A stretch of 34,530 nt of DNA from an uncultured Bacteroidales bacterium (GTDB lineage Bacteria; Bacteroidota; Bacteroidia; Bacteroidales; UBA4417), in contig CAIRHD010000016.1 in NCBI GenBank assembly GCA_903878265.1, positions 1 through 34,530 of the forward strand, given 5' to 3'. The notes beneath the pieces were generated by a model that worked only from the letters and a program-made list of their open reading frames with translations, did no database searches and was not told where the DNA came from. Both the position numbers and the translations under genes were made by a program. Below, one piece after another: positions 4,825 to 33,085 of the stretch (within the stretch, counting starts at the first letter, position 1; the number at the start of each line of letters is the position of its first letter).

Positions 4825-4855
4825 CAAATATACAACTTTATGTATTTGTAGCAAA
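4825..4855 (-). promoter_or_regulatory. Complete Bacteroidota-type promoter of the TPR gene
   Basis: On the minus strand TTTG (4852-4855) is followed by exactly 19 nt and then TATATTTG (4825-4832), a perfect match to TTTG-N19-TAnnTTTG. The start codon lies 48 nt downstream, leaving a leader of roughly 40 nt. Confidence 0.8.
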
Positions 4856-5176
4856 TCTTCTTGGGACGTAAATAATCAAGAACTGTTCCAATACAGTAAT
4901 CATGATAACTTATTGCTGTTAAAAATTTGTAAATTATGCAATCAGTAGATATACAATGAAGTAACAGCGTGTTAAAAGTACTGACGTTTGTTTGGTAAAA
5001 CCAGTGATTTGCAATGTATATGAAATGTCGTAATACTTTTTGGAGCGTTTTAGTCTCAAAAACGACCAGTTTTATCCGTTTTAGCTATTGAGGTTAAACG
5101 GCTTCCAAAAGAAATAAATGAAAAATGTCATACATTTGTTGCAAAATTTGAATAGAAAAGGCGAAGATTTCCTGAT

Positions 5177-5207
5177 TTTGCCTCTTGTGAACAAATGTTT
5201 ATAATTG
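5177..5207 (+). promoter_or_regulatory. Promoter of the DUF3822-rsmD operon
   Basis: TTTG (5177-5180), a 19-nt spacer and TATAATTG (5200-5207) match the Bacteroidota consensus in all but one position. Transcription would begin near 5214, giving a leader of about 130 nt. The perfect octamer TACATTTG at 5131-5138 is an alternative but has no -33 partner. Confidence 0.65.
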
Positions 5208-5341
5208 CTTTCAACAGAACTTGCGACTCTGCCAACCAACTTCCGACAGTAAAAACAGATCAGCTAAATCAACAGCATAACCATAAACCAAATCCAATCC
5301 GCATTCAATAAACCTATAATTGAAAAAGTCCAAAAACCACC

Positions 5342-6232
5342 ATGAATAACCCTTTGGAATGTATTTTACATAAAGTCGATCCACAGTTTGCTGCTTCGCA
5401 AGGTTTTAGGTACAGGCTTTCCGTTTTGCTTGACGCTGATGGGTTTTCATTTTTGGTTACACATGCCAATACTCAAAAAATATTGAGCATTTCGGTTTAC
5501 AAATTAGGGCTTGTCTCGGGCCAATCAGTTGAAGCCGTTGGATGGCCCACCAAAAACGATGGCTATTTCGACTTGTTAAAAAATATTGATGTCGTTAACC
5601 AACATTTTCAACGCATCGACATCGCCATTTCATCCCACAAAATTACTGTTGCTCCTTTCGTTTTTTTGAAACATGGCCATGAAACCGATTTGATGAATGC
5701 TGCCCACCAGAAAAATGAGGAAGAGGAAATTCTTACAGAGGCAGTTTCCATGGATGGATCTGCTGTGGCAAGCCTAATTCCTGAATATATAAAACGTAAC
5801 TGCGAAACTATTTTTCCGGGTGCAAACCTGCATTGTGAGGCTGCAGTATTGGCTAAAGGTCTTTTGCAAAAGCATCAAACATCAAACTTGCGACAAGTAT
5901 TTATCAATTTGCATCACAGATATTTTGATCTTGTTGTGGTTCAAGGCCCGAATTTGATTTACCTGAACGCTTTCAAATACATAGAACCATCGGATGTGCT
6001 CTATTTTGTTGTGTTTGTGCTCGAGCAACTTGGCATGACACCTACTGAAGAGACCGTTACATTGATGGGCGGCTTTTCGGAAAGCACACCAATTTTAGCA
6101 CACTTGAAATTGTATTGCGCCTCTTTGGTTTATATCGAAAAACCAACCGAACTCGAATATGGCGAAGTGCTGGCCGGGATAACGTTCCACAAATATTTCA
6201 CCCTGTTAAACTTACCGATATGCGAATTATAA
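5342..6232 (+). CDS. DUF3822 family protein
   Basis: The 296-residue protein matches the DUF3822 family, found almost only in Bacteroidota and usually directly upstream of rsmD. The recognisable parts are the N-terminal strands YRLSVLLDADGFSFLV and ILSISVYKL, and the C-terminal half with IYLNAFKYIEPSDVLYFVVFVLEQLG and VTLMGGFSES. The family is thought to have an actin/hexokinase-like fold, but its function is unknown. No signal peptide or membrane segment is present, so it is cytoplasmic. Its last 13 nt overlap the start of rsmD, which implies translational coupling and suggests a link to ribosome maturation; that link is inference from position only. Confidence 0.85.
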   Translation: MNNPLECILHKVDPQFAASQGFRYRLSVLLDADGFSFLVTHANTQKILSISVYKLGLVSGQSVEAVGWPTKNDGYFDLLKNIDVVNQHFQRIDIAISSHKITVAPFVFLKHGHETDLMNAAHQKNEEEEILTEAVSMDGSAVASLIPEYIKRNCETIFPGANLHCEAAVLAKGLLQKHQTSNLRQVFINLHHRYFDLVVVQGPNLIYLNAFKYIEPSDVLYFVVFVLEQLGMTPTEETVTLMGGFSESTPILAHLKLYCASLVYIEKPTELEYGEVLAGITFHKYFTLLNLPICEL

Positions 6233-6777
6233 GTGGCAGCCATAGGGGCAGGATTCTTAAACCACCGATGGGATTGCTGGTACGGCCAACAACGGATATG
6301 GCGAAGGAAAGTTTGTTTAATATCCTGAACAATTACATTGCTTTTGAAGAAGTTAAAGTGCTGGATCTTTTTGCAGGAACCGGCAATATTTCGTTGGAGT
6401 TTGCTGCCCGCAAAGCAAGTTCAGTACTGAGTGTAGATTTGAACAAGGCCTGCATCGATTTTATTTCAAAGATGGCCGCAGATTTGGATTTCAAACAGTT
6501 GACCGCCATTCAGGCCAATGTTTTCACTTTCCTATCGCGGCCAATGGGAGGTTTTGATGTGATTTTTGCCGACCCGCCTTACGACCTTGCCGAGCGCGAA
6601 AGGATCCCGGAATTAGTTTTTTCCAACAATTGGTTGAACGAAGAAGGCTGGTTGGTTTTTGAACATGACAAATATTTGAATTTTAAAGAGCATCCATTCT
6701 TTTATGAAGAAAGGCGATATGGGAAAATACATTTTTCGTTTTTCACGATACAAGCACCTGATAAAACTGGTTTTTGA
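6220..6777 (+). CDS. rsmD: 16S rRNA (guanine(966)-N2)-methyltransferase RsmD
   Basis: The 185-residue protein is an RsmD-type methyltransferase that uses S-adenosylmethionine to methylate N2 of G966 in 16S rRNA in the assembling small subunit. It begins with the family signature MRIISGSHRGRIL and RPTTDMAKESLFNIL. Next come the SAM-binding motif LDLFAGTGNISLE (around residues 46-58) and the catalytic motif ADPPY near residue 118. A longer frame begins at 6115, but those residues run through the DUF3822 gene in another frame. The ATG at 6220 agrees with the universal MRIISG start. It overlaps the DUF3822 gene by 13 nt. No terminator is obvious downstream. Confidence 0.95.
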   Translation: MRIISGSHRGRILKPPMGLLVRPTTDMAKESLFNILNNYIAFEEVKVLDLFAGTGNISLEFAARKASSVLSVDLNKACIDFISKMAADLDFKQLTAIQANVFTFLSRPMGGFDVIFADPPYDLAERERIPELVFSNNWLNEEGWLVFEHDKYLNFKEHPFFYEERRYGKIHFSFFTIQAPDKTGF

Positions 6778-6974
6778 GGTTTTTTAATAGCTTCAAGAAT
6801 AGGCAAAATGCCCAATTGCATTAGTATTTTATCTTTGTTAAAGAAAGATAAACTTATTAAATACAAGCCTTCATGGCAATGGATAGGAGAAAAATAAAGC
6901 ACTCAAAGGGAAGAATTCCATTTTCTCAATACTAGACTCTACTCCTGACTATTTCACCAGAGGTTTTCCCATTT

Positions 6975-7394
6975 TCACGACTGTTTTCCAGCTAAATCAT
7001 TGATAATGATTCCGGCCATCATATACCAGGCGGACATGGCGCAAACTATCAATTCGTAGCCGGCAACTACATTGAACACAGGATTGCCAAAATGGCCGAT
7101 ATCAAGCAGGATGAAGCCTAAAAGCAAAGTTCCAAAAGTTACAACCATCGCTTTATGAACCCGGAATGATGCCACAAACATTATTGCAGTATAAAGGGTC
7201 CAAGCCACAAGATAAAAACCCACATCGGTTTTTGATGCTTCATATATTTTGAAATAATTCAGCAACAACATGATTACCTGTCCGTTCCAGAACGAACCAT
7301 AAACCACAAAAGCACTGTAACCAAAATAGTTGCCCATTTTTTGTTCCTGAAACCCAGCGATAAATTGGGCGAGGCCATCAAAAACAAATATCAT
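6975..7394 (-). pseudogene. Acetate uptake transporter (SatP/YaaH, GPR1/FUN34 family) lacking its N-terminus
   Basis: The 139 residues match the C-terminal three quarters of the acetate/succinate transporter family. The family pattern GGxAQxxAGxxExKxGNxFGxxAFxxYGSFW appears as GLAQFIAGFQEQKMGNYFGY and VVYGSFWNGQV, followed by four further hydrophobic segments. Members are usually about 190-200 residues with six membrane segments and an NPAPLG-type motif in the first. Here the first segment, that motif and part of the second segment are absent. Only 45 nt separate the ATG from the divergent sensor gene, the in-frame upstream codons hit TAG after ten codons, and no other start is available. It is therefore probably a 5'-truncated, inactive gene. 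A shortened five-segment protein that is still made cannot be excluded. Confidence 0.7.
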
Positions 7395-7399
7395 TAAAC

Positions 7400-7407
7400 T
7401 ATCTTTG
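7400..7407 (+). promoter_or_regulatory. -7 element for the Cache/PAS/CBS/DUF294 gene
   Basis: TATCTTTG matches TAnnTTTG exactly, 32 nt before the ATG at 7440. The -33 position has no TTTG, so the promoter may need an activator or be weak. The word ttgtaacaa overlapping its end is a 9-bp perfect inverted repeat. Confidence 0.45.
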
Positions 7408-7439
7408 TAACAATAAAAACAAACCTACCCTACTGCAAC

Positions 7440-10301
7440 ATGAAAAAGTTTTATTTGCGAATAATCCTGCCAGCCATCATGGCGATATTGTTGTTCATCC
7501 TCACTATTTTTTTAATAATAATACCCCGCTATCAACAAAATATAATGAATGGCAAGCGCGAGATGATAAAAGAGTTGACCAACTCGGCATGGAGTATTAT
7601 TTCAAGATATGAACAAGATTCAAAATCTGGGATCATCACAAAGGAAGTAGCTCAGAAAACCGCTATTTCGCGAATAGAATATATGCGTTATGGCTTTGAT
7701 GACAAGGATTATTTCTGGATAACAGACATGACCCCAAGTATGGTAATGCACCCTTTCCGTACTGATTTGAACGGGAAAGACTTAAGAGGGTTCACGGATC
7801 CACATGGAAAAAGGTTGTTTGTTGAATTTGTTGAAACGGTAAAGAAATCGGAGCATGGCTACGTTGATTATATGTGGCAGTGGAAGGACGACTCGTTGCA
7901 TATTGTACCCAAACTATCGTATGTTAAACTTTTCAAACCATGGGGCTGGGTAATCGGCACAGGCATTTATGTTGAAGATGTTAAAAAAGAGATTTCGGCC
8001 CTCACAAACCGGATGCTATGGATATCTATCGGTATTTCCATAGTAATTACATTTCTGCTTTTATATATTTTCAGGCAAAGCCTCAAAACAGAACGTAAAA
8101 GGCTCGGGGCAGAAAACGATTTGCACGAAGCAAAAGAAAAATTCAGGACGCTTGTGGAAGCTGCAACCGAAGGTTTGATAATGGTAATAGAGGGGAAAAT
8201 CAGTTTTTCGAATAGCGTGATAGGCAAAATGACCGGTTATCTGCCTGCCGAACTTCTCAACCTTTCGTTAAACGAAATAGTAAGCAAAAGCAATAACGAG
8301 GATATTATAGACGCTTTTTCGAAAAACAAGGTAAAAGAAGGGCAATTCGAATTAAACCTTAACAGGAAAAACGGAGGAGTGGTTGAATCCCTGATCACTT
8401 CCTCAACTACCATTTTCTCAGGCAAAGAGGTCAACATACTGATTGTTAAAGATATTTCGATAGACAAAAGTTTGAATGTTACCAGCCTCGACTACCAAAA
8501 ACTTATCAACACACTTGATATTGGTTTTTTTAAAGCTCGACTTGATGCAAAAGGGAAATTCCTTTTTGCTAACGAAACAGCCATCAAAATACTGGGATAC
8601 GAAAGCCTGAAAGATTTGTCGGGCATACACTTTGTAGGTTTAATTGCCGATGCCACCGACAGGAAAGACCTGATTGGCTTACTTGCTGAAAATGGATTTG
8701 TAAAAGGCAAGGTGCTGAAAATAAACAAGCCAAATGGCGATTTTTCCATTGTTGCTCTTTCTATCGTGGCCATTAACAGCGAAAATCCCGACGACTGGGT
8801 TTGCGATTGCATTATTGAGGATATTACTTTACTTGAAAGGGGCAAAACCCAAACCAATAATCTGATCGCCGAGTTAAAATCGAACGATTTTATGCTTGAA
8901 CAATCGGTTAAAGATTATGTAAAGCCCATTTATACCCTTGATGCAGATGCAACATTAAACGATGCCATCAAGGTATTGGCAATAAAGAAAACAGAAAGCC
9001 TGTTGCTTACCAAAAACGAAAAGGATTACATCGGCATAGTTACGAATACCGATATTCAGAAAAGGATCCTCTCGCTCAACCTCAGCCTCGATAACCCCGC
9101 ATATTTGATAATGAGTTCGCCTATTACATATATTTCCGAAAACACATCGGTACTTGATGCAATTACGCTTTGTGAAGAAAAACGGATAAACCATCTGGCT
9201 GTTAAAAATGGATCCGGAGAACTTAAAGGCATGCTGAAGACCAATGATGTTTATAAGATGCTTTTGAACTCGCTTTCGTTTTTTATTGCCAAAATTCGAA
9301 AAGCCGAAACCAACCATGATCTGAAACAGTGTTATGGCACTCTTCAATTGCTACTAAAACCGCGCATAAAAAGCGATGTTTCCATTAAATACGTTACAAA
9401 AATAACAACTGCTTTTTCGGATGCCATCATAAGAAAGATTATCGAACTGACGATAGATGAAATAGGGCAACCACCCGTAAATTTCTCTTTTCTTTGTTTG
9501 GGAAGCGAAGGGCGGAAGGAAGAAACCCTTTTTACCGATCAGGACAATGCCATCATATACGGGAATGTTGCAAAAGAAAAGGAGCTTGCTGTGCAGGCAT
9601 ATTTCAACAATCTTGGCGAGCGTGTGTGCAATTCGTTAAACTACGTCGGTTATTCTTTTTGTTTAGGCAATATAATGGCCAAAAACCCGATGTGGTGCAA
9701 ACCGCTGGATATCTGGGAAAAATATTTTGACAACTGGATAGCAACACCCGAGCCACAAAACCTGCTGGAGGCAACTATTTTCTTTGATTTTAGGTGTGTT
9801 TATGGAGATGAAATGCTTATAGAAAAATTAAAGAATGGAATAGATGATGCTATTAATTTGAATCCTTCTTTCCTATATCACCTTGCCTTTAACACGTTCA
9901 ATACCAAAAGCCCACATATTTCGTCAGGCAACATCTTATCGGATAAGCATGGTGATAGCATTGACCTTAAAAGTGCTTTGGTGCCTATAATAATGTTTGC
10001 ACGAACCTACTCGCTCCAGAACAATATTTGGTGTTCCAATACTATCGAAAGACTTGTTGCATTGAAAGAAAAACACATTATCAGCGAAAACACTATAGAT
10101 GAAATTGTATTCGCATATAACTTCCTTATGAACCTCCGCTTACGCAATCAAATTGATTTGATTGATAACAATGCGCCCGTTTCTAATAAGCTCAATACAA
10201 AAAAACTTATCGAAATGGAGCTTTATATGCTAAAGAAAGTATTGTCGGCCATACCCGACTACCAAAGCAAAATCAAGATTGATTTCCGGATAACCACATA
10301 A
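7440..10301 (+). CDS. Membrane sensor: Cache, two PAS, CBS pair, DUF294 nucleotidyltransferase-like domains
   Basis: This 953-residue signalling protein has no kinase, cyclase or methyl-accepting domain. A membrane segment (residues about 7-28) is followed by a periplasmic single-Cache domain (about 35-185) with DKDYFWITDMTPSMVMHP and PWGWVIGTGIYVEDV, then a second membrane segment (192-211). Two PAS domains follow (about 232-340 and 352-468), then two CBS motifs (about 490-610) and a DUF294 domain with GSEGRKEETLFTDQD at 688-702. That motif keeps the G-S...D-x-D core of the nucleotidyltransferase fold seen in GlnD-like uridylyltransferases. The C-terminus (from about 810) is a DUF294_C-like helical domain. 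CBS-DUF294 proteins are often encoded beside sodium/acetate symporters, which fits this locus. It probably senses an external carboxylate and acts on a cytoplasmic partner by nucleotide transfer; the partner and reaction are not known. Confidence 0.85.
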   Translation: MKKFYLRIILPAIMAILLFILTIFLIIIPRYQQNIMNGKREMIKELTNSAWSIISRYEQDSKSGIITKEVAQKTAISRIEYMRYGFDDKDYFWITDMTPSMVMHPFRTDLNGKDLRGFTDPHGKRLFVEFVETVKKSEHGYVDYMWQWKDDSLHIVPKLSYVKLFKPWGWVIGTGIYVEDVKKEISALTNRMLWISIGISIVITFLLLYIFRQSLKTERKRLGAENDLHEAKEKFRTLVEAATEGLIMVIEGKISFSNSVIGKMTGYLPAELLNLSLNEIVSKSNNEDIIDAFSKNKVKEGQFELNLNRKNGGVVESLITSSTTIFSGKEVNILIVKDISIDKSLNVTSLDYQKLINTLDIGFFKARLDAKGKFLFANETAIKILGYESLKDLSGIHFVGLIADATDRKDLIGLLAENGFVKGKVLKINKPNGDFSIVALSIVAINSENPDDWVCDCIIEDITLLERGKTQTNNLIAELKSNDFMLEQSVKDYVKPIYTLDADATLNDAIKVLAIKKTESLLLTKNEKDYIGIVTNTDIQKRILSLNLSLDNPAYLIMSSPITYISENTSVLDAITLCEEKRINHLAVKNGSGELKGMLKTNDVYKMLLNSLSFFIAKIRKAETNHDLKQCYGTLQLLLKPRIKSDVSIKYVTKITTAFSDAIIRKIIELTIDEIGQPPVNFSFLCLGSEGRKEETLFTDQDNAIIYGNVAKEKELAVQAYFNNLGERVCNSLNYVGYSFCLGNIMAKNPMWCKPLDIWEKYFDNWIATPEPQNLLEATIFFDFRCVYGDEMLIEKLKNGIDDAINLNPSFLYHLAFNTFNTKSPHISSGNILSDKHGDSIDLKSALVPIIMFARTYSLQNNIWCSNTIERLVALKEKHIISENTIDEIVFAYNFLMNLRLRNQIDLIDNNAPVSNKLNTKKLIEMELYMLKKVLSAIPDYQSKIKIDFRITT

Positions 10302-10329
10302 TATACAGCCTTTGGATTTAGCGTTTGTT

Positions 10330-10440
10330 TTCACACTCGAAATGTATCTAAAAGTTACGAATTGCGATTTACGAATAGCGAATAACCAATAACACTTCGA
10401 CTTCGCTCAGTGTCCGCCAATAACCAATAACCAATAACGA
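10330..10440. repeat. Intergenic repeat cluster (aataaccaataac and a 20-bp REP-like word)
   Basis: The spacer between the sensor gene and the metallophosphoesterase carries the 13-mer aataaccaataac at 10381-10393 and again at 10419-10431, followed directly by a half copy. Between them is CACTTCGACTTCGCTCAGTG (10393-10412), whose CACT/AGTG ends are complementary. Words of this type recur between genes in many Bacteroidota genomes. I see no gene here. Confidence 0.5.
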
Positions 10441-10516
10441 CTTGTATTTATCTCTTTAAAATCATCAATCGCAAGGGAAACAGATAACTTATCATTATTG
10501 CCAGCCTCCAAATAGC

Positions 10517-11272
10517 CTAAATCGAAAAATACGCTTTCCGGTTGAACCCATTGGATTCGTTCAAATGGATATATCCAAGCTGGTTTGTGAGCATTACAGT
10601 ATCTCCTATGAGTATTGGGTAATAATTGAAGTGGCTGTGCCCATGTATCCAAAAATTCGCCTTACATTCCTTGATATAATCGGTCAGGTCAACACAAAAT
10701 GCCTCGTTTATCGAGCTGGCGTTGTGAGCCTCCGAGTTGCACAAAACTGAAGGCAAATGATGCGTTACAACAACAGTTTTGTTTCGCTTGCCATTTAACG
10801 ATTGTTTTAAAAAGCCTATGCTTTCGTCATGGAGTTTGTTAAATGTGGCAGCACTAAATTTCTTGTTGTTTTGGCTGATGAATTCAAAATCGGCTACACT
10901 CCGCTCAATGTTTTTTTCGTTCCCCAAGTTTATTTTCGACCATAGCGTGCTGAATATGAAGTGGATGCCAGAGTGCAGCAATTCAATGTTGTTTACAATG
11001 TTTATATTTTCATAAATATTGATATTGTACGAACTGCTATAATCAGAAATATTTTTATGATAAAATTCATGGTTTCCCGGCACCCAATATACTTGTTTGT
11101 AATTATTGGAAATATAACGGAAAAAAGGATTGGTTAAATACTCATCGTGTAACGGAACGATATCGCCAGCCAATATCAAAATGTCTCCCGATACGGATAA
11201 AGGGGTCATTTCGAAATACCTGCTGTTTTGGCTTAATTCGAGGTGAAGATCGGAACAATATTGTATTCTCAT
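10517..11272 (-). CDS. Calcineurin-like metallophosphoesterase
   Basis: The 251-residue protein contains all metal-binding blocks of the calcineurin-type phosphoesterase family: DLHLE near residue 8, ILAGDIVPL near 33, the GNHEFYH block near 67, VVVTHHLPS near 170, and WIHGHSHFNY near 208. Such enzymes use two metal ions to split phosphate esters; the substrate cannot be read from the sequence. No signal peptide is present, so it is cytoplasmic. It starts at the ATG at 11272, directly before the conserved first strand (MRIQYCSDLH). It lies between the DUF294 sensor and the Crp/Fnr gene. A role in removing a nucleotide or phosphate signal in this acetate locus is conceivable but unproven. Confidence 0.88.
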   Translation of the reverse strand: MRIQYCSDLHLELSQNSRYFEMTPLSVSGDILILAGDIVPLHDEYLTNPFFRYISNNYKQVYWVPGNHEFYHKNISDYSSSYNINIYENINIVNNIELLHSGIHFIFSTLWSKINLGNEKNIERSVADFEFISQNNKKFSAATFNKLHDESIGFLKQSLNGKRNKTVVVTHHLPSVLCNSEAHNASSINEAFCVDLTDYIKECKANFWIHGHSHFNYYPILIGDTVMLTNQLGYIHLNESNGFNRKAYFSI

Positions 11273-23325: not shown

Positions 23326-23335
23326 TCAGCTGGTT
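23305..23335 (-). terminator. Probable terminator of the glycosylation operon
   Basis: Read on the minus strand, aaccagc and gctgtggtt can pair (with a small bulge) around a 10-nt loop and are followed by a run of six T. The hairpin overlaps the stop codon of the last gene (23326-23328), so it is a weak but well placed candidate. Confidence 0.4.
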
Positions 23336-26019
23336 CCTTTAAATTTGTATTCAATATTTTTCCAGGTTTCCATCACCTCTTCTAATTTCAATGAACTATG
23401 TGTTATTTTCACTTCCTTGATATCACCAAAGAAAAACCCCCCTGAGTTTTTAATGTTGCCAATATATAAGTTTTCAGCACTGTTTAAATATGCGGTTGGC
23501 ATTGCAGCTTGTCCAACTAGTTGACCATTAGAGTAGGCCAAAATAATATTTCTATTAATTTCAAAGGCCAAATAATTCCATTTTCCAGAATTGATAGGAA
23601 TTAGCAAACAACGGGATCCAATGCAAATCATATATTGATTTCTCGCTGTATCGTTTTGTTGAAGAGCAAAACCAGAACTATCATTAATATTAAATAATAG
23701 GGTTTGTGATCGGGTAGGACCTACCATTGGGATGTTCTCTGGTTTAAAAACAATTTCAACAGAAAATCGATCGCCTGTCGAAATCTTCCCTTTCTTACCC
23801 ATAGCATAGGAAAGCCTTTTTTCAACATCTGAATCAAACATCTCATGAATAAGGCTATACGGATCATTCTTCAAAATAAATGAACTTGTTGAATCTTTTT
23901 TCCTAGGTGTAAGCATTGCCAATTTACCTCCGATGCCATCACTTTTGTTTACTTTGTATAAACTTGACAAATAGGTGTAATACCTAACATCTGAAGTGCG
24001 AAAGTTTTCTGGATCGAAAAATACTTTTGAATGTTGGTTGTTTTTAATCCAGTTTACAATCCTTTCATTATCCTCTTTGAGAAAAAGATCGCCAAAGCCT
24101 GGATTGATAGAGCTGGCAGTATTCGATAGGCTGAAATACAAGCCTTGATAATAATCTTTGGTTAGGACTAAGATTTTTTCCTTTTCTGTAGTGTTGTCTT
24201 TAATAAATCTTGCATTTTGCATGATGCTCTGATTTTCATCAAAGCTCTGTTTCTTGTTGTTCTTTTCATACACAAGGTCAGTGATACGCTTGTAATCATA
24301 AAGGGTTTGAAATACTGAAAAAGCCAAAATGAATAATACAAATGAAAATGGCATATAAAAAAGCTTATGGGTTTTAATTATAGAGAGCATTTCATCTGCA
24401 AAAATAGCCAGCAAAATAAAGGCAAAAGGACAAACCGCCAGCAGGTTCCAGTTATGGCTTCGCCCTAAATAATAAGAAAAACAAGCAATACCCGTAACTG
24501 TAATAAGAAAAACCATATTGCTTCTATAAGTGTACTTCCTCTCAATAAAATGAAATGCAGAGTATGCAAGCCCTACAATATATATAAAGGCCACTACCAT
24601 CCACGGGTGAGGGTGGGTGGTAAGGGGCAGCATTCCAAAGCCTATGTTGGAGAAGACATTTATTGTCGAGAACAGAATTCTGAAATCCGGAAACCTACTA
24701 TAAAACAGTTTAATGCATAACATATACAAAGATACAGTCAAAGCCAGTGTGAGAAAGGCAATCCCTATATGCTTGAGCGAATTTATAAAGATGGCAACAA
24801 ACTCTTTGTTTTCAAATTCGAGAAAAATATAAAAAATTAAAAGTGTCGCAAAGCATAACAAACCAAAATCTGGACTCCAGAGAAATCCTATTGAGAAAAA
24901 GAAGAAAGAAAGGTAATATAGCCATTTTATTTTGTTTTTCAAATATACACTACCAAAAAACATAAGACTAAAAGGCCATATCCATCGGATGGGGAACATT
25001 GCAAAGTTGCAATCATAGGGCAAAGCAAGCCTTGCAAACATATAGCACATAAAAAATACACTTGCAAAACCGAAAAGCAATAAAAAATTATTGTTGATTG
25101 TTTTCCTTAGTACATATAACAACATACCAAAACAAACCGATAGAAGAAATGCCATAATATAGTTAAAGCCAATAATTGATTCCCCACCTATTAGATTTAT
25201 AAATGGAACAACAAAATGGGGGTATAAGCCATAAGTGTTCTTGAAATTGTCAACCAGTAATGGCAAACCATTTTTTACCTGAACAACAGAATAAAAGACA
25301 GCGTTAAAATCATATTTATTTTCAAATGTATATGGGAATCGGAATGCGGATATTAAAAAAACAAGGAAAATAATAATTGAACAAAAACCATATATCAAGG
25401 TGGTATTTGCTATTTTGATAATATGCAATGTGTTTGATTGAATCCTAAAAGGAAATAAAAATAGAAATACTATGCTGGGAAAAACCAGTAAAGTGAATTG
25501 AAAAAAATGGTTGTAGATATATGTGTTTTGAAAATAGAATTCCCAGTTTGTTTTTGCAACCACATCCATATAGTTAAGCATAGTCCCAGCAAAAGGGTTA
25601 GGCCCTTCTGTCCCTTTTATTGTAAAATATATTAGTGGTATTAATCCAAAAATCAAGCTGCCAATGTATAATCTACCAAGATAAATATTACCAATCCATT
25701 GTTTGCGTTTTTTCAACTGCCAATATAGTAATACCATAGATAATGTAATGGTAAAAACCGCTGTCACAAAGCACATCGACTCTAATGGTTCAGGCGAACA
25801 GGCTTCAGGACTGTAATTAAGTAAAACCTTCTTAGCTAAAACCTGTGACTGTATTATATTGGGATGATAAGTTTGGTTTATTAATAGAAGAACAACAGCA
25901 TAAAAAACAAGCGACAGAAATATAACAACAGAACCCAGAACAAAATTCTGTTTATACTGATTTAGCATCAAGTTATCCGAAATAGGGTGCTTGCTGATTT
26001 TATTAGTTGGTTGCTTCAT
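23326..26019 (-). CDS. Polytopic membrane protein (GT-C-like) with a C-terminal LamG-like domain
   Basis: The 897-residue protein has an N-terminal cytoplasmic stub, about 12-14 membrane segments (roughly residues 25-600), a soluble part (600-745) and a C-terminal LamG/concanavalin-like domain (about 749-890). The membrane part has the long-loop, multi-segment character of GT-C glycosyltransferases or of oligosaccharide-modifying membrane enzymes. The first extracytoplasmic loops carry acidic residues (TEGPNPFAGTMLNYMDVVAKTNWEFY, with NGLPLLVDNFKNTYG later), but I cannot name the family. The LamG-like end shows DRFSVEIVFKPENIP, WNYLAFEINRNIILAYSNGQLVG and LYIGNIKNSGGFFFGDIKEVKI. It is the last gene of the operon, 53 nt after the methyltransferase. 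It probably transfers or handles lipid-linked sugar on the outer face, with the LamG-like domain binding the acceptor; this is inference. Confidence 0.65.
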   Translation of the reverse strand: MKQPTNKISKHPISDNLMLNQYKQNFVLGSVVIFLSLVFYAVVLLLINQTYHPNIIQSQVLAKKVLLNYSPEACSPEPLESMCFVTAVFTITLSMVLLYWQLKKRKQWIGNIYLGRLYIGSLIFGLIPLIYFTIKGTEGPNPFAGTMLNYMDVVAKTNWEFYFQNTYIYNHFFQFTLLVFPSIVFLFLFPFRIQSNTLHIIKIANTTLIYGFCSIIIFLVFLISAFRFPYTFENKYDFNAVFYSVVQVKNGLPLLVDNFKNTYGLYPHFVVPFINLIGGESIIGFNYIMAFLLSVCFGMLLYVLRKTINNNFLLLFGFASVFFMCYMFARLALPYDCNFAMFPIRWIWPFSLMFFGSVYLKNKIKWLYYLSFFFFSIGFLWSPDFGLLCFATLLIFYIFLEFENKEFVAIFINSLKHIGIAFLTLALTVSLYMLCIKLFYSRFPDFRILFSTINVFSNIGFGMLPLTTHPHPWMVVAFIYIVGLAYSAFHFIERKYTYRSNMVFLITVTGIACFSYYLGRSHNWNLLAVCPFAFILLAIFADEMLSIIKTHKLFYMPFSFVLFILAFSVFQTLYDYKRITDLVYEKNNKKQSFDENQSIMQNARFIKDNTTEKEKILVLTKDYYQGLYFSLSNTASSINPGFGDLFLKEDNERIVNWIKNNQHSKVFFDPENFRTSDVRYYTYLSSLYKVNKSDGIGGKLAMLTPRKKDSTSSFILKNDPYSLIHEMFDSDVEKRLSYAMGKKGKISTGDRFSVEIVFKPENIPMVGPTRSQTLLFNINDSSGFALQQNDTARNQYMICIGSRCLLIPINSGKWNYLAFEINRNIILAYSNGQLVGQAAMPTAYLNSAENLYIGNIKNSGGFFFGDIKEVKITHSSLKLEEVMETWKNIEYKFKGTS

Positions 26020-26072
26020 GAAAAACTTTATATTTGGAGGAACCGTGCGATAAATGAGTGTTTGATCTAACT

Positions 26073-26780
26073 TTATTTTTTTGCTGAGATAAAAATAGAC
26101 TGGCTAGAATATTTCAGGATAGGGGTCTTCTCAAACAGTGACCCAAGTTTAATTATGGAATTAACTAAAAAAGATGGGGTGTTGGGCAACAGAAAATCTC
26201 TATATTCAACTTTGATTTCAGTATAGCCCAGCCTGTTAAGAAGGGATTTAATGAACTTTTTTGTAAAAGCCATCTCATTTGGCTCCAAGTTAGCCATTTT
26301 GCGGAAAATTGGCAATGAATTGAAAATCAGGAAACAATATGGGTTCAAAAGGTTTGGCTCCAAGAAAATAATCTTGCCATTTTCTTTTAATAGAGCTTTA
26401 ATATTTTGAAGAGCCATATCTAAATTGTTGTAAAGATGATGGAGTATCCCATTGCCGACTATATAATCGAACTTCTGATCCCCCAGATCAGGACAATTAA
26501 AATCTAGTATTCTGAACTTAAGGTTCGGTAATTGGTATTTGCTCTTCGCGTCTTCGATAAATGGCAAACAAAGGTCGGTTCCAAGAACATTCATCTTGGT
26601 TTTTCTAGCGAGCAAAAAAGACATTTCCCCAGTTCCACACCCAATTTCCAAGATAGAAGCAATTTCTTGTTTATCCATTTGTTGAATCAAATATTCACAT
26701 CGTCTTTCCGTTCTGATTTCCAAGGTCAAACTTGGTCGAAACCCTTGGTTATAGCCACGGTCATCTTTAACACTTCCCAT
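26073..26780 (-). CDS. Class I SAM-dependent methyltransferase
   Basis: The 235-residue protein has the seven-strand Rossmann-like methyltransferase fold. Motif I is ILEIGCGTGEMSFLL (43-57), with the acidic residue after strand 2 in VLGTDLCLPF. Motif post-I/II is FDYIVGNGILHHL (around 104-116), and motif III is ALLKENGKIIFLEPN (around 128-142). The IVGNGILHHL segment is usual for methyltransferases of small molecules or sugars; the acceptor cannot be told. A basic C-terminal half (FRKMANLEPNEMAFTKKFIKSLL) may contact membrane or a lipid-linked substrate. It lies 21 nt after the epimerase-GT2 fusion gene and 53 nt before the LamG membrane protein gene, so it is part of the operon. It may methylate the sugar or glycan made here. 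Confidence 0.85.
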   Translation of the reverse strand: MGSVKDDRGYNQGFRPSLTLEIRTERRCEYLIQQMDKQEIASILEIGCGTGEMSFLLARKTKMNVLGTDLCLPFIEDAKSKYQLPNLKFRILDFNCPDLGDQKFDYIVGNGILHHLYNNLDMALQNIKALLKENGKIIFLEPNLLNPYCFLIFNSLPIFRKMANLEPNEMAFTKKFIKSLLNRLGYTEIKVEYRDFLLPNTPSFLVNSIIKLGSLFEKTPILKYSSQSIFISAKK

Positions 26781-26801
26781 TTTTAATATTTTACAGATTT
26801 C

Positions 26802-28820
26802 TTAAATTGTACCCTGTTGTTTAATGTCATGGATTACTTTATTAATCTCTTGCTGCCTTTTATAGGTTTTGCCATTATATATTATTTTGTCCCTAATAAA
26901 TTTCGGTCTGTTTTTAACTTCCTCTATTATCTTTCCAATATAATCGCCTAAGATACTTATTGAAATAAGCTGTATGCCTCCTAACCCGAGCATGATTAGG
27001 ATAAGGGTAGGAATACCTTGGGCATTTTCGGGCGGATTTAGGAAATATTCGATAACATAGAATGCAGACAGCCCTATGGTTAGTAGAAACACGATAAAAC
27101 CAATTGTTTGGATATACTGCAAGGGTTTGATGCTAAAAGAGAATATCCCCTTTTTAGCCCACCAGATATTTTTGAAAAAGCTATTAGTGCTCTGTCCAAA
27201 AAGCCTTTCAGGTCTGATGTAAGGCACACCTATCTGGCGGAAACCAATCCAAGCTCTTAAACCCCTAATAAAAATATCTTTCTCCGAAAACGTTAACATG
27301 TGGTCAGCCGCTTTACGGTTGATTAATGAGAAATCCCCGGCATCAACAGGAATCGTTACATCCGACAATTTCTTAAAGATACGATAGAACAATTTATAAA
27401 GGAACTGCATGTACAATGGAGCTTCCCTTTTTATTCGATTCCCATAAACAATTTCATAACCTTCTTCCCATTTATCGATAAAATTAGGGATAATTTCGGG
27501 TGGGTCTTGTCCATCGCCATCCATTAGTATAACTGCATCACCACTTGAGAGTTCCATCCCACTTATAAAAGCCGATTGTGAACCAAAATTTCGTGAATGG
27601 CTTATGCCAATTACATGGGAATCAGTTGCGCAAATTTTTGCTACCACTTCCTCATCGTTAAATGGGCTGGCATCATTGACAAAAATAATCTCATAATCAT
27701 AGCCGCTTTGTACAAACATTGTTGATAACCGCTCATACAGGATAGGGATAGACTGATTATCTTTATAACAAGCAATAATAGCCGTAATTTTCTTGTCTTT
27801 TACTGGGACAGAAACATATTTCAAGCGGTCGGCAGCTTCTTTTTCCCAAACTGTTGTCAATTTCAACCCATCTTCAAATGCAAGCCTACTTTTCCATCCA
27901 AGTAATTCAATAGCCAATTGTGGGTTACCATACCAATCTGCAAGATCCCATTTCCTGTTTGGCATATTCCCAAACATAGGTTCTTGTTGAATTTTGAAAA
28001 GCTCCTTTGAAATGTTTGCAACATCACTCAATGTCGTTTTTTTACCGGAGGCAATATTTATTGAAGCTCCAGAATTGGTCTTACAAGCTGTAAGTGCAGC
28101 TTTTACCAGAGCATTTGTACAATCATCAACATAGACAAAATCGCGGGAGATGCTCGGGTTAACCAATTTGGGGTATTTTCCTTGTAAACCAAAACTTATA
28201 AGTGTAGGAATCAACCTGTCTCTTTCTTCCCAAGGCCCATATATGGAATATAGGCGCAAGTTTACACAGGGCAAATTGTGAACTATGCCGTAGTACTTTA
28301 TGAGGTAGGCAGCACCGACTTTTGAAACCGCATAATCTGAATTTGGTACTAATTCAGACTTTTCATCAGGAAACTCGCAGTTTAATCCATATTCGGAGGA
28401 AGTTCCAGCTTGAACAAAGGCACTGCACCCTGTGTCCATTAGTAACTTGAGGATGTTAACCGTACCCATGTAGTTAGTGAGGTGTATCCTTTCAGCATCT
28501 ATCTGTCGTGCATAAGCACCATAAGCAGAAAGATTAAAGACAGTTTGCGGATTTAGATTAGTGAAAACCCTTTGTAATTGATCGAATTCTATAATATCCG
28601 AATTGATAAGATGAGCAGGCTCAACACCAGATAAGCGCCAGCTTTTTTGGGGGTTTCGAGAAAGGGCATATACATCATCCCTCACATTACGGAGACTATG
28701 GAACAAATTGGCTCCTATAAAACCAGAAGCTCCTATAATCAATATTGGGCCTTGCAATTTGCATGCCTCTTCAGTTTGGCTTGCATCCCAATTGGGCAAG
28801 TATAGAATATCTTTATCCAT
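26802..28820 (-). CDS. Fusion of NAD-dependent epimerase/dehydratase and DPM1/GtrB-like polyprenyl-phosphate glycosyltransferase
   Basis: The 672-residue protein joins two enzymes. Residues about 22-330 form an extended SDR: the nucleotide-binding loop GASGFIGAN (30-38), a TSSEYG block (about 141-146), the catalytic Y164-x3-K168 (SDYAVSK) and the late RDFVYVDD strand. Residues about 345-645 form a GT2 glycosyltransferase: ITAIIACYKD, YEIIFVNDASPF, the donor/metal motif MDGDGQDPPE (434-443), the VDAGDFSLI loop and two C-terminal membrane segments (about 570-595 and 602-628). This is the layout of DPM1, GtrB and ArnC, which load a sugar on polyprenyl phosphate. A longer start at 28868 would overlap the transketolase gene by 56 nt; the ATG at 28820 overlaps it by only 8 nt (ATGGATAA) and is preferred. 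Fusion suggests the SDR makes the sugar that the GT2 transfers. Confidence 0.88.
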   Translation of the reverse strand: MDKDILYLPNWDASQTEEACKLQGPILIIGASGFIGANLFHSLRNVRDDVYALSRNPQKSWRLSGVEPAHLINSDIIEFDQLQRVFTNLNPQTVFNLSAYGAYARQIDAERIHLTNYMGTVNILKLLMDTGCSAFVQAGTSSEYGLNCEFPDEKSELVPNSDYAVSKVGAAYLIKYYGIVHNLPCVNLRLYSIYGPWEERDRLIPTLISFGLQGKYPKLVNPSISRDFVYVDDCTNALVKAALTACKTNSGASINIASGKKTTLSDVANISKELFKIQQEPMFGNMPNRKWDLADWYGNPQLAIELLGWKSRLAFEDGLKLTTVWEKEAADRLKYVSVPVKDKKITAIIACYKDNQSIPILYERLSTMFVQSGYDYEIIFVNDASPFNDEEVVAKICATDSHVIGISHSRNFGSQSAFISGMELSSGDAVILMDGDGQDPPEIIPNFIDKWEEGYEIVYGNRIKREAPLYMQFLYKLFYRIFKKLSDVTIPVDAGDFSLINRKAADHMLTFSEKDIFIRGLRAWIGFRQIGVPYIRPERLFGQSTNSFFKNIWWAKKGIFSFSIKPLQYIQTIGFIVFLLTIGLSAFYVIEYFLNPPENAQGIPTLILIMLGLGGIQLISISILGDYIGKIIEEVKNRPKFIRDKIIYNGKTYKRQQEINKVIHDIKQQGTI

Positions 28821-29724
28821 GTAAAATTTGGTTAATGGCCAATTCAATGTTGTTTGCATCAAGCCCATTCAATGACTGGTGATAACTCTGGCTTCCATAT
28901 CGGCCATTTGGATAGCCTTTTGCATAAAGTTGATTAAAAGTGCATTGCAAATTGTTTTCCAGAATATGGCTTGCTAGGTGCTCTCCCAAGCCGCCCCGTT
29001 TTACATGTTCCTCAATGATAAGAACATGGCCTGTTTTTTTGATACTGTGTTTAATTTCTTCAGAAAGGATTGGAACAGGCATTTCTGAAATCACAAAAAC
29101 ATCAGCAGTAAATGTACTGTTTGGTTTCCCAACCAACTTGAAAATATTCAACAATACAGGTCCCATCCCTATAACTGTTATATCCCTTCCAATATAAAGT
29201 TTCCGTGTGTGCCGAAATTCCGGCAAGCTAACACCTTCAGGTAAAACACCAAACCCTAAGCGTAGATAAGAAGGACCAACATGTTGAAACATTGCGTTTA
29301 TTGTGCCTTCTACATCTTCATTACTAATAGGGATGAAGCATTTCATATTTTGAAAAGAAGTCAGGACTGCAATATCCTCAATGGCATGATGTGTAGCTCC
29401 CATTATCCCATATCCATATCCACCCCCATTACCAACAATTTTTACATTTAAGTTATGCAAACAAACATCAAGGCGTATCTGTTCTGCAGGTCGGAATACT
29501 ATGAATGGGGCAATACTGTAACAAACGGGCAAGAGGCCTTCTGAAGCCATTGCTGCAGCCATTGAAACAATATTTTGCTCGCTAACCCCCGCATTTACAA
29601 ACCGTTCTCCAATTGCTTCTTTGATGTTTTCCAGAGCCATAAAGCCGAGATCTCCAGTAAGAAAAATCAGCTCTTGTTTTTCAATGGCTATCTTTTCGAT
29701 TGTTTTTGAAAACTCACGTCGCAT
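28813..29724 (-). CDS. Transketolase, C-terminal subunit (pyrimidine-binding and C-terminal domains)
   Basis: The 303-residue protein is the second half of a split transketolase. The pyrimidine-binding domain (about 1-165) contains LTGDLGF, the NAGVSEQN loop with the catalytic glutamate E49 that activates thiamine diphosphate, YSIAPFIVFRPAEQIRLDV, and GGGYGYGIMGATHHAIEDIA (around 117-136). The C-terminal domain (about 180-300) contains DITVIGMGPVLLN and IEEHVKRGGLGEHLASH. Its start codon shares one base with the stop of the N-terminal subunit (TAATG), so translation of the two should be coupled in equal amounts. The next gene overlaps its end by 8 nt. In this position it probably supplies a ketose phosphate for a surface sugar, separate from the housekeeping transketolase. 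Confidence 0.9.
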   Translation of the reverse strand: MRREFSKTIEKIAIEKQELIFLTGDLGFMALENIKEAIGERFVNAGVSEQNIVSMAAAMASEGLLPVCYSIAPFIVFRPAEQIRLDVCLHNLNVKIVGNGGGYGYGIMGATHHAIEDIAVLTSFQNMKCFIPISNEDVEGTINAMFQHVGPSYLRLGFGVLPEGVSLPEFRHTRKLYIGRDITVIGMGPVLLNIFKLVGKPNSTFTADVFVISEMPVPILSEEIKHSIKKTGHVLIIEEHVKRGGLGEHLASHILENNLQCTFNQLYAKGYPNGRYGSQSYHQSLNGLDANNIELAINQILHG

Positions 29725-30509
29725 TAGGCAGGTATTTCATTAATAGCAATATGGTATTGCTCATCTGACATTGGCAAATAGTGCCATTCCATTTTATTTT
29801 CCATAAACGAAACGCCACTTCCTTTAGTGGTACGTGCAATAATTATTTTTGGTTTTTCGGAATTCGGATTCAATAAAACGAATGATTGCTCAATTGATTT
29901 AAAATCATTGCCATTTTCAGCTGTGCTTACGTCAAAATTAAACGATTTCCATTTTTCAACAATTGGGTTTAAATTGATGACTCCTTCTGATTCTCCAAAT
30001 CCTTGTAAACCGTTATTGTCCATCAATACAACCAAGTTGCTAAGTTTATGCTGTCCAGCAAACAATGCCGCTTCCCAAGTAGAGCCTTCATTACAATCTC
30101 CTTCTGATATAATACAATATATGTTGGATTTTTTCTTGGTAAATTTATTTGAGAAAGCAAGACCTGTTGAAAGCGACAAGCCGTGCCCCAGACTGCCAGT
30201 TCCAAAAATTACACCATTTAATTTATTGCCACAAGGTGGATGGGCTGCAAGAAAAGTCCCGTCTTGATAAAAAGTTTCTAACTCTGATTCTGGGAAAAAA
30301 CCTGCTTTTGAAAGAACAACATACAGAGCCAATGCCGCATGTCCTTTAGACAGAATAACTTTATCACCATCCTGGAATTTCTTGAAGAAAATATAAACCA
30401 ATAAATCCAAACAGGAAAGAGATGAGCCAATATGGCCTGCATTTGCTTTTTTGTAAAGGGACAATATTTTATATTGACAATCTCTTTTTATCAGTTCAAT
30501 TTCTTTCAT
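29724..30509 (-). CDS. Transketolase, N-terminal subunit (thiamine diphosphate-binding)
   Basis: The 261-residue protein is the first half of a split transketolase. It keeps the histidine of NAGHIGSSLS (residue 26), the SKGHAALALY block (54-63), GTGSLGHGLSLSTGLA (103-118), and the thiamine diphosphate/metal motif from GDCN (137-140) to DNN (164-166). In the metal motif the usual third residue glycine is cysteine (GDC where GDG is common). It acts with the next gene product to move two-carbon units between sugar phosphates. It lies 80 nt after the YfhO-family gene and overlaps the C-terminal subunit gene by one base. The dedicated split pair in a sugar-transfer operon points to synthesis of an unusual sugar, for example a pentulose, but the product cannot be determined here. 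Confidence 0.9.
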   Translation of the reverse strand: MKEIELIKRDCQYKILSLYKKANAGHIGSSLSCLDLLVYIFFKKFQDGDKVILSKGHAALALYVVLSKAGFFPESELETFYQDGTFLAAHPPCGNKLNGVIFGTGSLGHGLSLSTGLAFSNKFTKKKSNIYCIISEGDCNEGSTWEAALFAGQHKLSNLVVLMDNNGLQGFGESEGVINLNPIVEKWKSFNFDVSTAENGNDFKSIEQSFVLLNPNSEKPKIIIARTTKGSGVSFMENKMEWHYLPMSDEQYHIAINEIPA

Positions 30510-30589
30510 GTAAGGCTGGTTGTTGATTTTCCTTAAATTCGTTCTTTAATTTTATCTTGATGATAAATTATATTGCTTGTTATAGCAAT

Positions 30590-33085
30590 TTACTTAATCG
30601 AATTGGCTGAAGCAACTTTTTCTCTTAATTGTTCGTTTTTATTATCCAGTTGATGTTTTAACCCAATTAGAAGAAAATACAACAATAATCCAACTATTGA
30701 AGCAATAAGGCTCAGTTTAAAAAAAGGCGGTCTGTAAAACAATTCGATATTGTGACTCCCAGGCCTCAATTCAACCCCTAAAAAACCTATATTGCTCAAC
30801 AATGGTTCGGTTGGTTTGCCATCAATTATAAAATGCCATCCCTTATCATAAGGAATGCTGAAAAACAATAATTTATTCTCTTTCAATTCAATGCTTGCTT
30901 TTATTCTTTTGTTAGTAAAACTTGTCATTTTCATTGTATCAGCCTTTCTCGCATTAACATCGGCAGATAATTCGTCCCATGAATAATTTTTAGTGGTGTC
31001 CTGAATATTGAATTGTGATAGATTTTTAAATTTTGTCAAATCAGAGTCCTCTACAACAACAGCTTTGAGAAGTGTTAATTGCTTTTGAAGTACAGTCAGT
31101 GACTGATATTGGCTTAAAGGAATATATTTAGTGTATGTGAAACCTAATGGTAAAAAATATTTAGCTTTAAGTATCTTAACATCTGCTATTTGTGTAATAG
31201 AATCATACCCAAGCTGTAAAAATTGCGAATTCGCCTGTTTGGTGAGATTATATTTAACACTGCTAAAAAAATGCAAAAGCGGGCGGGTATTAAGTCCAGA
31301 TGCCCATCGCGACTGGAACTCATCCCCTTTCTTTATTACACCCGCCTCTTCCAAAAACCTGATATAATATTTTTGGTTGAAAGATACATAGGATGATGTG
31401 CCGTAGTAGTCTTGCATCTTCGCATCGTTGTAACTTGTGTGTATAGCTGGCCCAGAAGCATATTCCTTATTAAGCCTAAAGAAACCTTTATCAATAGATT
31501 TAACAAAAGCTATAGCCTCGTTAGAATAGTCGTTGTAGCCGGTTTTTTGGTGGGCTTCATGACTTGTGAGGGACGCCCTCTCATTTATCGATATACTATT
31601 CATATAACCAACCTCAACAAAAACCACTATAATCAAAAGTGTTTTTGCTATGTTCCGATTACCGCTAAAGTTCAGAAAAAGAATAATTCCCGTATAAATC
31701 AATAGGAAAACCAAAATCAATGAACGAAGATTTTTTTGTAGAACATTGTCAATATATTCGTAAGGATAATAAAGTAGGATTATTAATCCAACCAATGTCG
31801 CACCTAGAATAAACCAATTAATTTTCTTAACCTTATCTAATTCGTTCACAACCATAAGACTAAAAATAAGAAATGCTAAAGAAATGAACAAAGAAAATCC
31901 GCGGTAATATGAACCGGTGAATAGCCAAAATGCATATCGGAAAAACGGGAATACGATTGGGATTAAAAATATGGCGAGAAATACGCCAAATATATACTTC
32001 TTTTTTCTTTCAAGGAAAATGAAAATTTGGGGGAAAAGCAATAATGGCAGCAACCCCATATAAAACATAGGTGCTTCCATATAGTTGTACCATCCTTTAA
32101 AATTACTGCCGTTTCCCAAAAGATCATTAGAAAAAAACCGCATGATCGCAGTAATATTGTGTTCGCGCCCCGCGAGACCAAAAACAGGCTTTGTCATTAG
32201 TTCATTTGCGTAGGAAAAACCACCGCCAACCCGTGGGCTGTCCATAAGTGTTTGCAAGGTGCTTACGAGGAAAAAAGAGCTGATCATGACTCCAAGCAAA
32301 ACAAGTGCAGCCATTTTAAAAGAGCTTAAAAATAGTTTTTCCCACGAAGCGTCGTCTGAAGAAAAATGCCTAAAGAGAAAATAAATTATAAGGAATAACC
32401 CATAAAAATAAAGATCAAAAGGCTGTAGCATTGTTATCAGTGCCACTGCAACAGGGAACAAATACCACTTATTATCTTGGTAAAGCCTTTCAAAACTAAG
32501 AAGGAGTAAAGACAAAAGACAAGCTTCTGCCGAGAAAATGAACCATCCGCTACCGATAATCATGAATCCACTGAATGTGAACAACAATGTTCCGATGAGC
32601 ACTGATGTAGATGACAAACGCAATTTTTTCAGTAAATTATAAAAGAAAAAGGCTGTAAGAAGCAGCTTTACTATTTCCATCCAAATAAAACCATATTCAA
32701 TATTTCCAGTGCCAAAAAGTATAACAATCCAGTTGAACGGATCGGAAAGGCTTGGCATTATATTCTGGCCCATACCTTGAGAAAAAGACCATAAGGGAAG
32801 CCCTTCAGTATGCAGGTACTTCGTTAACAAGGTGATTTGAGGCCATGAATAATTTATCGAATCGCTCCCAATATCCTTAAACAAATAATACTTATTCCCG
32901 ACGATAAAGTCGAAGAAAATAATTATAATCAATACCGAAACCAATCCTAGCGTAATCCAAAGACCATATTTTTCCATGTATTGATCAAGGAAAAATGGCT
33001 TGAAAACGGATTTATTGGTTTCCTTTTTTGCGGAAACCTTGGCTGCCGGCTTTATTGTTGGCTTTCGGGTTGGTATTTGTTTCAT
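30590..33085 (-). CDS. YfhO-family membrane glycosyltransferase (GT-C type)
   Basis: The 831-residue protein matches the YfhO family. It has a basic cytoplasmic N-terminus (about 1-40, many K and P), a first membrane segment (about 43-65), the loop YYLFKDIGSDSINYSWPQ with acidic residues near the membrane face, and FSQGMGQNIMPSLSDPFNW. About 12 membrane segments follow up to residue 500, then an extracytoplasmic C-terminal domain (about 510-785) ending FSIPYDKGWHFIIDGKP and RPGSHNIELFYRPP, and one last membrane segment. In Bacillus, YfhO works with the polyprenyl-phosphate loading enzyme CsbB to put sugar on lipoteichoic acid, and the GT2 of this operon could play the CsbB part. It is the first gene of the operon and divergent from dnaG. 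Confidence 0.85.
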   Translation of the reverse strand: MKQIPTRKPTIKPAAKVSAKKETNKSVFKPFFLDQYMEKYGLWITLGLVSVLIIIIFFDFIVGNKYYLFKDIGSDSINYSWPQITLLTKYLHTEGLPLWSFSQGMGQNIMPSLSDPFNWIVILFGTGNIEYGFIWMEIVKLLLTAFFFYNLLKKLRLSSTSVLIGTLLFTFSGFMIIGSGWFIFSAEACLLSLLLLSFERLYQDNKWYLFPVAVALITMLQPFDLYFYGLFLIIYFLFRHFSSDDASWEKLFLSSFKMAALVLLGVMISSFFLVSTLQTLMDSPRVGGGFSYANELMTKPVFGLAGREHNITAIMRFFSNDLLGNGSNFKGWYNYMEAPMFYMGLLPLLLFPQIFIFLERKKKYIFGVFLAIFLIPIVFPFFRYAFWLFTGSYYRGFSLFISLAFLIFSLMVVNELDKVKKINWFILGATLVGLIILLYYPYEYIDNVLQKNLRSLILVFLLIYTGIILFLNFSGNRNIAKTLLIIVVFVEVGYMNSISINERASLTSHEAHQKTGYNDYSNEAIAFVKSIDKGFFRLNKEYASGPAIHTSYNDAKMQDYYGTSSYVSFNQKYYIRFLEEAGVIKKGDEFQSRWASGLNTRPLLHFFSSVKYNLTKQANSQFLQLGYDSITQIADVKILKAKYFLPLGFTYTKYIPLSQYQSLTVLQKQLTLLKAVVVEDSDLTKFKNLSQFNIQDTTKNYSWDELSADVNARKADTMKMTSFTNKRIKASIELKENKLLFFSIPYDKGWHFIIDGKPTEPLLSNIGFLGVELRPGSHNIELFYRPPFFKLSLIASIVGLLLYFLLIGLKHQLDNKNEQLREKVASANSIK

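Follow-up and report, generated by a model that had tools for sequence, protein, structure and literature searches.

A second, altered split transketolase in an uncultured Bacteroidales bacterium, probably tied to the assembly of a surface sugar

Why should a transketolase, split over two genes, lie among genes for lipid-linked sugars? The question is raised by six adjacent genes of an uncultured Bacteroidales bacterium (assembly GCA_903878265.1, contig CAIRHD010000016.1), found on a stretch of 34,530 bases, here called the window, which is an entire contig (C16) of a 5.78 Mb genome in 629 contigs. The two transketolase genes, TktN and TktC, are followed by a gene in which a short-chain dehydrogenase/reductase (SDR) is fused to a family 2 glycosyltransferase (GT2). 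The pair is an altered second transketolase copy, linked through gene order and fusion to enzymes whose probable task is to display an unusual sugar at the surface. The six genes, in the order in which they are read, are:

30590..33085, minus strand: YfhO-family polytopic membrane protein, 831 amino acids (aa), a putative GT-C transferase using a polyprenyl-phosphate sugar (Pfam YfhO, 1.5e-76); accessory
29724..30509, minus strand: TktN, the thiamine diphosphate (ThDP)-binding half of a split transketolase, 261 aa (Transketolase_N, 1.3e-30)
28813..29724, minus strand: TktC, the pyrimidine-binding and C-terminal half, 303 aa (Transket_pyr, 1.3e-23; Transketolase_C, 6.4e-9)
26802..28820, minus strand: SDR-GT2 fusion, a reductase/epimerase-type SDR followed by a PgfS/ArnC/GtrB-like GT2 (Epimerase, 5.8e-40; Glycos_transf_2, 1e-23)
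26073..26780, minus strand: class I S-adenosylmethionine-dependent methyltransferase, 235 aa (Methyltransf_12, 1e-16)
23326..26019, minus strand: polytopic membrane protein with a C-terminal LamG/ConA-like domain, 897 aa (Laminin_G_3, 8.2e-10, residues 749-882); accessory

Open reading frame (ORF) calls and Pfam domains agree on these six genes, strand and positions, as a sequence-only reading of the window had proposed, and all six frames are open. Its spacings hold as well (TktN and TktC overlap by 1 nt, and the further gaps are 21 nt and 53 nt), and the gap between YfhO and TktN is 80 nt. The 8-nt overlap that it gave for TktC and SDR-GT2 is found if the fusion protein starts at residue 17 (28820), but not for the longest ORF (26802-28868), where the overlap is 56 nt. 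Residue 17, where the alignments of two close relatives described below (L071 and L072) begin, is most likely the start; both relatives also overlap TktC by 8 nt. Strand and spacing suggest that the six genes are co-transcribed. A scan of the window placed promoter-like sites at chance level (48 versus 42.1 +/- 6.1) and terminator-like sites above it (17 versus 8.4 +/- 2.9); no terminator-like site follows the last gene, and those listed on the minus strand are intragenic.

Is the arrangement more than an accident of one contig? A protein-pattern scan of genome contigs led to L071 and L072, two loci from Bacteroidales metagenome-assembled genomes, whose TktN, TktC, SDR-GT2 and methyltransferase are 63-69% identical to those of the window. 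Both carry one additional methyltransferase ahead of the last gene and lie downstream of a chain-length gene, in L072 also of a polysaccharide export gene. Within the genus, one of 15 genomes searched (G004) has the cassette, on a 5-kb contig. Among wider draws, TktC matches occurred in 23 of 395 class genomes (E<=1e-36) and 2 of 395 phylum genomes (E<=1e-50), the two draws having used different limits and the window's own genome being counted in each. Loci were then compared by gene clustering, covering all 24 further class-draw matches and four contigs of three genomes. Thirty TktC loci divide into 22 with the window's YGIMG motif (window-like) and eight without it (divergent); since several loci end at contig edges, neighbour counts are lower bounds.

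Among the 22 window-like loci, TktN is present in at least 20 and stands immediately upstream of TktC in at least 13, while the SDR-GT2 fusion occurs anywhere in at least 16 and immediately downstream of TktC in at least 13. The exact order, with TktN before and the fusion after TktC, is seen in at least 11; the window's methyltransferase cluster (c3) in at least 10, and any of three methyltransferase clusters in at least 15. In L074, L102, L115 and L117 the SDR is separate from a short GT2 (c8), and L111 carries both forms. The order TktN-TktC-SDR-GT2 even recurs on a Methylobacterium aquaticum plasmid, with 45% identity in TktC and in SDR-GT2. For the four core genes, the ratio of nonsynonymous to synonymous substitution rates (dN/dS) is 0.07-0.16 between L071 and L072, indicating purifying selection; against the window, dS is saturated or nearly so. 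Its recurrence in other genomes and the selection seen between L071 and L072 mark the arrangement as more than chance, and the expectation that the gene order would be found in relatives is borne out. Weak matches (27.5-32.2% identity) turned up in 13 records of a phage collection; several of these are faecal or Listeria records and may represent host DNA.

What, then, distinguishes this transketolase? Residues were compared with human and Carboxydothermus transketolase, positions being given in human numbering. The Pfam transketolase domains are present and the equivalent of catalytic Glu366 is kept in the window TktC, as in all 29 cassette TktC rows covering that position. The four active-site His of TktN are kept in all rows covering them, window included (the short L104 TktN misses most of the active-site positions). 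The changes lie on the substrate side. We take Ser345, His416 and Arg474 to bind the substrate phosphate and Asp424 to read the acceptor hydroxyl; at Ser345, His416, Asp424 and Arg474 the window TktC reads M, G, M and F. Arg318, the first phosphate-side Arg, is kept; of the four presumed phosphate binders, three are lost. His416 is replaced by Gly in 30/30 cassette rows; among window-like rows Asp424 is Met in 22/22, Arg474 is kept in 0/22 and Ser345 in 1/21. The eight divergent rows have Arg or Lys at 474 throughout and keep Ser345 in three cases and Asp424 in one. Both His and Asp are kept in 23 of 25 other split TktC rows, the two exceptions (L054 and L061) being nearest to the divergent cassette type. 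Five further plasmid TktC sequences, Methylobacterium included, have Gly at the His position and Arg or Lys at 474. In a TktC tree (L125 omitted), 21 window-like rows fall on one branch with support 100/100. The divergent rows do not group together, and the placing of the long branches L076 and L117 is unsure. Presumably, S385, D469 and R520 of the E. coli enzyme are the equivalents of human Ser345, Asp424 and Arg474. E. coli transketolase carrying S385Y/D469T/R520Q was evolved away from phosphorylated acceptors (PMC5073344).

Could the pair nonetheless serve central metabolism? The sequence-only reading had made its dedicated pathway depend on this not being the sole transketolase of the genome, and indeed another split pair lies on contig C505 (N half 4285-5091, C half 6802-7563), whose C half (row HK_L065) keeps the canonical substrate residues checked. 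A housekeeping role for the window pair is rejected in view of this canonical pair and the altered substrate residues. The pair might still be a spare pentose-phosphate transketolase lying by chance in a glycan operon, and it does belong to the same Pfam families as the housekeeping enzyme; against this stand the canonical pair on C505, the alteration of His416 in every cassette row and the sparse occurrence of cassette-type TktC among the drawn class and phylum genomes, which leave a spare copy barely credible. With the order kept in relatives and a second, canonical pair present, a dedicated, non-pentose-phosphate transketolase in an operon for polyprenyl-phosphate sugars, as had been proposed, is in our judgement likely.

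A further change concerns the window alone. In the 28 cassette rows that cover the GDG metal motif of TktN, it is SDG in 26; one further row has GDA, and the window has SEG. The metal-binding Asp is thus kept in 27 of the 28, with the window as the sole exception. The codon is GAA (Glu) in the window versus GAT (Asp) in both L071 and L072, one base apart. A decaying cassette, in which TktN has lost its metal ligand and SDR-GT2 and YfhO load only an ordinary sugar, would account for a single-base change to S-E-G seen in the window only. All six frames are open, however, Glu may still bind the metal, and one wrong consensus base in an assembly of 629 contigs would give the same picture; we consider decay improbable.

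If a sugar phosphate is no longer the substrate, what might be? Distant relatives offer a clue in their neighbours. RfbF scores over its cut-off inside L114 (window-like) and inside L119, L120 and L123 (divergent). L114 also encodes RfbG, RfbH and a PgfS-like GT2, and L123 encodes RfbH; in L119, L120 and L123 an rfbG-like SDR, recognised by gene clustering and length only, adjoins rfbF, and L119 has a C-methyltransferase-type protein. The gene order in Methylovirgula is rfbF, rfbG, SDR, rfbH, TktN, TktC, and a Paenibacillus plasmid carries rfbF, rfbG, a methyltransferase, an SDR-TktN fusion (L139 7097-9004) and TktC. Relatives in Solidesulfovibrio and Azospirillum stand in other contexts (pseB/pseC; radical SAM). 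Because rfbF, rfbG and sometimes rfbH lie beside distant relatives, they point to a nucleotide-bound keto-sugar as acceptor. Such genes are found beside the ThDP enzyme at L114, L119, L120, L123, Paenibacillus and Methylovirgula, and not at the window. At the level of genomes, RfbF is over cut-off in 18 of 55, including 6 of 7 with divergent loci only and 8 of 27 without a cassette-type match. Of the 21 window-like genomes, 19 have RmlB over cut-off and the other two are 52 and 56% complete; a nucleotide-bound 4-keto sugar is therefore available in this group. For the window itself, a CDP-glucose route is unsupported, its genome having no RfbF over cut-off.

These neighbours also bear on the product envisaged by the sequence-only reading, in which the transketolase product is an unusual ketose or chain-altered sugar phosphate, to be activated by a nucleotidyltransferase encoded elsewhere, converted by the SDR and loaded by the GT2. 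The transketolase domains, the four retained TktN His, the retained first phosphate-side Arg of TktC and the fact that all but one of the 22 window-like loci lack RfbF would suit such a scheme. A sugar-phosphate product nevertheless sits badly with the loss of three of the four presumed phosphate-binding residues: Ser, His and Arg, together with the hydroxyl-reading Asp, are altered in the window, and the distant relatives accompany enzymes of nucleotide-bound keto-sugars. We rate it as distinctly unlikely. A ThDP enzyme of another kind, whose donor would be a keto acid such as hydroxypyruvate or whose product would be a linear chain-extended sugar, gains from the fact that loss of the phosphate residues would affect the donor as well as the acceptor. 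The 4-keto sugars made by the relatives' rfbG and rfbH would better fit a branch at C4; this reading seems to us unlikely, though less so than the sugar phosphate.

Where would the sugar go? The GT2 half of the fusion is nearest to polyprenyl-phosphate glycosyltransferases in NCBIfam and PDB comparisons. Residues 360-661 match PgfS 2-304 of 308 (238 bits, 1.1e-70), short of the equivalog cut-off of 500, and homology to the PgfS/ArnC/GtrB type runs through the whole GT2, C-terminal membrane part included; among PDB structures, sll0501 (1.8e-59) and ArnC (1.4e-39) are matched. The SDR half keeps Tyr and Lys and lacks the dehydratase Asp-Glu pair. On the rule, which we assume, that 4,6-dehydratase SDRs carry an Asp-Glu motif, its motif SSEYG rules out such an enzyme. 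In 19 of the 20 close rows (those with at least 37% identity), Ser or Thr occupies the place of the NAD-type Asp, which suggests that the SDR uses NADPH. Elsewhere, the window genome has one GtrA and, on contig C289, a second YfhO-family frame, matched at its C-terminal end.

The membrane proteins at the two ends of the operon are less constant partners. YfhO scores 258.9 bits against a Pfam cut-off of 28.5, and NCBIfam models PgfM2 (2.9e-25) and PgfM1 (3e-11) match it below their cut-offs. Of the six-gene set first proposed, the transketolase pair and SDR-GT2 recur, but by blastp (1e-8) YfhO homologues occur in 2 of the 22 window-like loci (42% identity in L107) and full-length homologues of the LamG-ended protein also in 2 (33% in L112), with a partial match in L107. 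Both genes were dropped as core parts, though L107 (genome G430) unites every kind of gene in the window operon, namely YfhO, a LamG-ended membrane protein, TktN, TktC, SDR-GT2 and methyltransferases. By a simple rule the window's LamG-ended protein has 12 hydrophobic segments, and it is possibly a second transferase or a glycan-binding protein; its structure model (AlphaFold, 6 sequences) is unreliable, with a mean pLDDT of 42.9. A large same-strand polytopic protein, called by a simple hydropathy rule, lies within six genes of TktC in 14 of 22 window-like loci. Ten such proteins were scanned with Pfam, nine from window-like TktC loci plus L074: PMT_2 was found above cut-off in one and below cut-off with TPR repeats in another (L074), LamG in one (L107), DUF6044, DUF6056 and cytochrome assembly in one each, and no match in four. 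A 1060-aa cytochrome c assembly protein (ResB and Cytochrom_C_asm) upstream of the cassette in L105 (3340-6522) is probably unrelated.

We propose that the operon serves to build and export a single unusual sugar and that TktN and TktC have left the pentose phosphate pathway. Taking a two-carbon ketol unit from a donor, the pair would attach it at the carbonyl of a nucleotide-bound keto-sugar, and a branched sugar would result. Reduction of the new ketone, probably with NADPH, would fall to the SDR half, and transfer of the finished sugar to polyprenyl phosphate to the GT2 half. The methyltransferase would decorate the sugar, the lipid would be turned over by a flippase encoded elsewhere (perhaps the one GtrA), and delivery of the sugar to an extracytoplasmic acceptor would be the work of YfhO, possibly aided by the LamG protein. 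We infer the identity of the keto-sugar acceptor, the branching reaction, the order of steps, the target of methylation and the final acceptor. To this course of two-carbon addition, reduction, lipid loading and outside transfer we give about an even chance. The wider idea, that a split transketolase family left sugar phosphates to build two-carbon-branched sugars on nucleotide carriers and that the window-like branch coupled this to a reductase-GT2 fusion and polyprenyl phosphate for surface display, is more tentative, its chances being somewhat below even.

Several observations weigh against this proposal, which is weakest at three points: the acceptor used in window-like genomes, the donor, and the Glu that the window has in its metal motif. 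Just 4 of 21 window-like genomes, the window's own not among them, have RfbF over cut-off, and rfbF lies within one of 22 window-like loci (L114); this scarcity counts against a CDP-sugar for most genomes of this type. RmlB, for its part, is common, and its presence lends weak support. A ketose-phosphate donor presumably relies on the same lost residues, which makes the donor uncertain too. Arg474 is kept in the Methylobacterium TktC, which is of the same type with Met at 424, and Arg or Lys at 474 also occurs in the eight divergent rows and four other plasmid rows. In the window TktN, the change of the metal-ligand Asp to Glu (residues 134-142) could impair ThDP binding. Finally, no characterised relative was found, and a 2025 review calls the function of such enzymes pending (PMC12247030).

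How does the cassette compare with known systems? The Pgf operon of Streptococcus mutans (PgfS, PgfM1, PgfE, PgfM2) likewise combines a PgfS-like GT2, an epimerase-type SDR and Pgf/YfhO-type membrane proteins in one operon (PMC5856776). The part of that account available names no transketolase or methyltransferase, both present at the window, and describes PgfE as a UDP-glucose 4-epimerase (PMC5856776); the window SDR instead forms one protein with the GT2 and has no NAD-type Asp. The window locus has one YfhO and an extra transketolase, and all its scores are below the NCBIfam cut-offs for Pgf equivalogs. Its lipid side is shared with teichoic acid glycosylation by CsbB/GtcA/YfhO in Bacillus and Listeria, in which a C55-P-sugar is made inside, flipped and used by YfhO outside; that system uses UDP-GlcNAc or UDP-galactose, and the accessible description includes no sugar-making genes (PMC7389260).

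The closest chemical parallel lies in the yersiniose pathway (CDP-3,6-dideoxy-4-keto-glucose), in which the ThDP enzyme YerE attaches a two-carbon branch to a keto-sugar bound to CDP, with ketoreduction as the next step (PMC12247030, PMC4753412). Distant cassette relatives resemble this pathway in carrying rfbF/rfbG/rfbH, while the window genome has no RfbF over cut-off. Unlike the window pair, YerE is a single protein, a ThDP flavoprotein that decarboxylates pyruvate and belongs to a different superfamily (PMC12247030, PMC4753412). The split transketolases of the miharamycin and amipurimycin clusters of Streptomyces, for which hydroxyacetyl transfer to a keto-sugar is proposed, resemble the window pair by description; they serve secondary metabolites, in contrast to the lipid-linked surface sugars proposed here (PMC12247030). 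The best-scoring solved structures for both TktN and TktC are those of the housekeeping split transketolase of Carboxydothermus (PDB 6yaj/6yak), which keeps the Ser/His/Asp/Arg substrate residues that the window pair lacks.

In a literature search with few subscription papers in reach, no account of the cassette or of the full gene set was found. Transketolases acting on ketones have been proposed, with none characterised in vitro as of the 2025 review, which counts 13 such split transketolase sequences, all from Streptomycetes and none tested in vitro (PMC12247030). With the cassette come further sequences, of Bacteroidota, Alphaproteobacteria and Bacillota, together with a residue signature and natural partner enzymes (a reductase and a lipid loader), and a ketone-directed reaction thereby becomes directly testable. 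If the proposal is true, it would mean a transketolase that attacks ketones in glycan assembly, an additional way for bacteria to make rare branched sugars for their surfaces, and a class of biocatalysts for tertiary alcohols.

Some cassette loci carry further genes. A DUF4915/TIGR03032 protein and a conserved protein of 313-315 aa lie between TktN and TktC in L102, L111 and L115; L074 has only the former and L075 only the latter. This 313-315 aa companion has no Pfam match and looks like a sulfotransferase. In L107 one methyltransferase gene is in two ORFs of 90 and 135 aa (9945-10678), and in L117 a fused 2-oxoacid dehydrogenase E1-type protein (4489-6915) lies just upstream of TktN.

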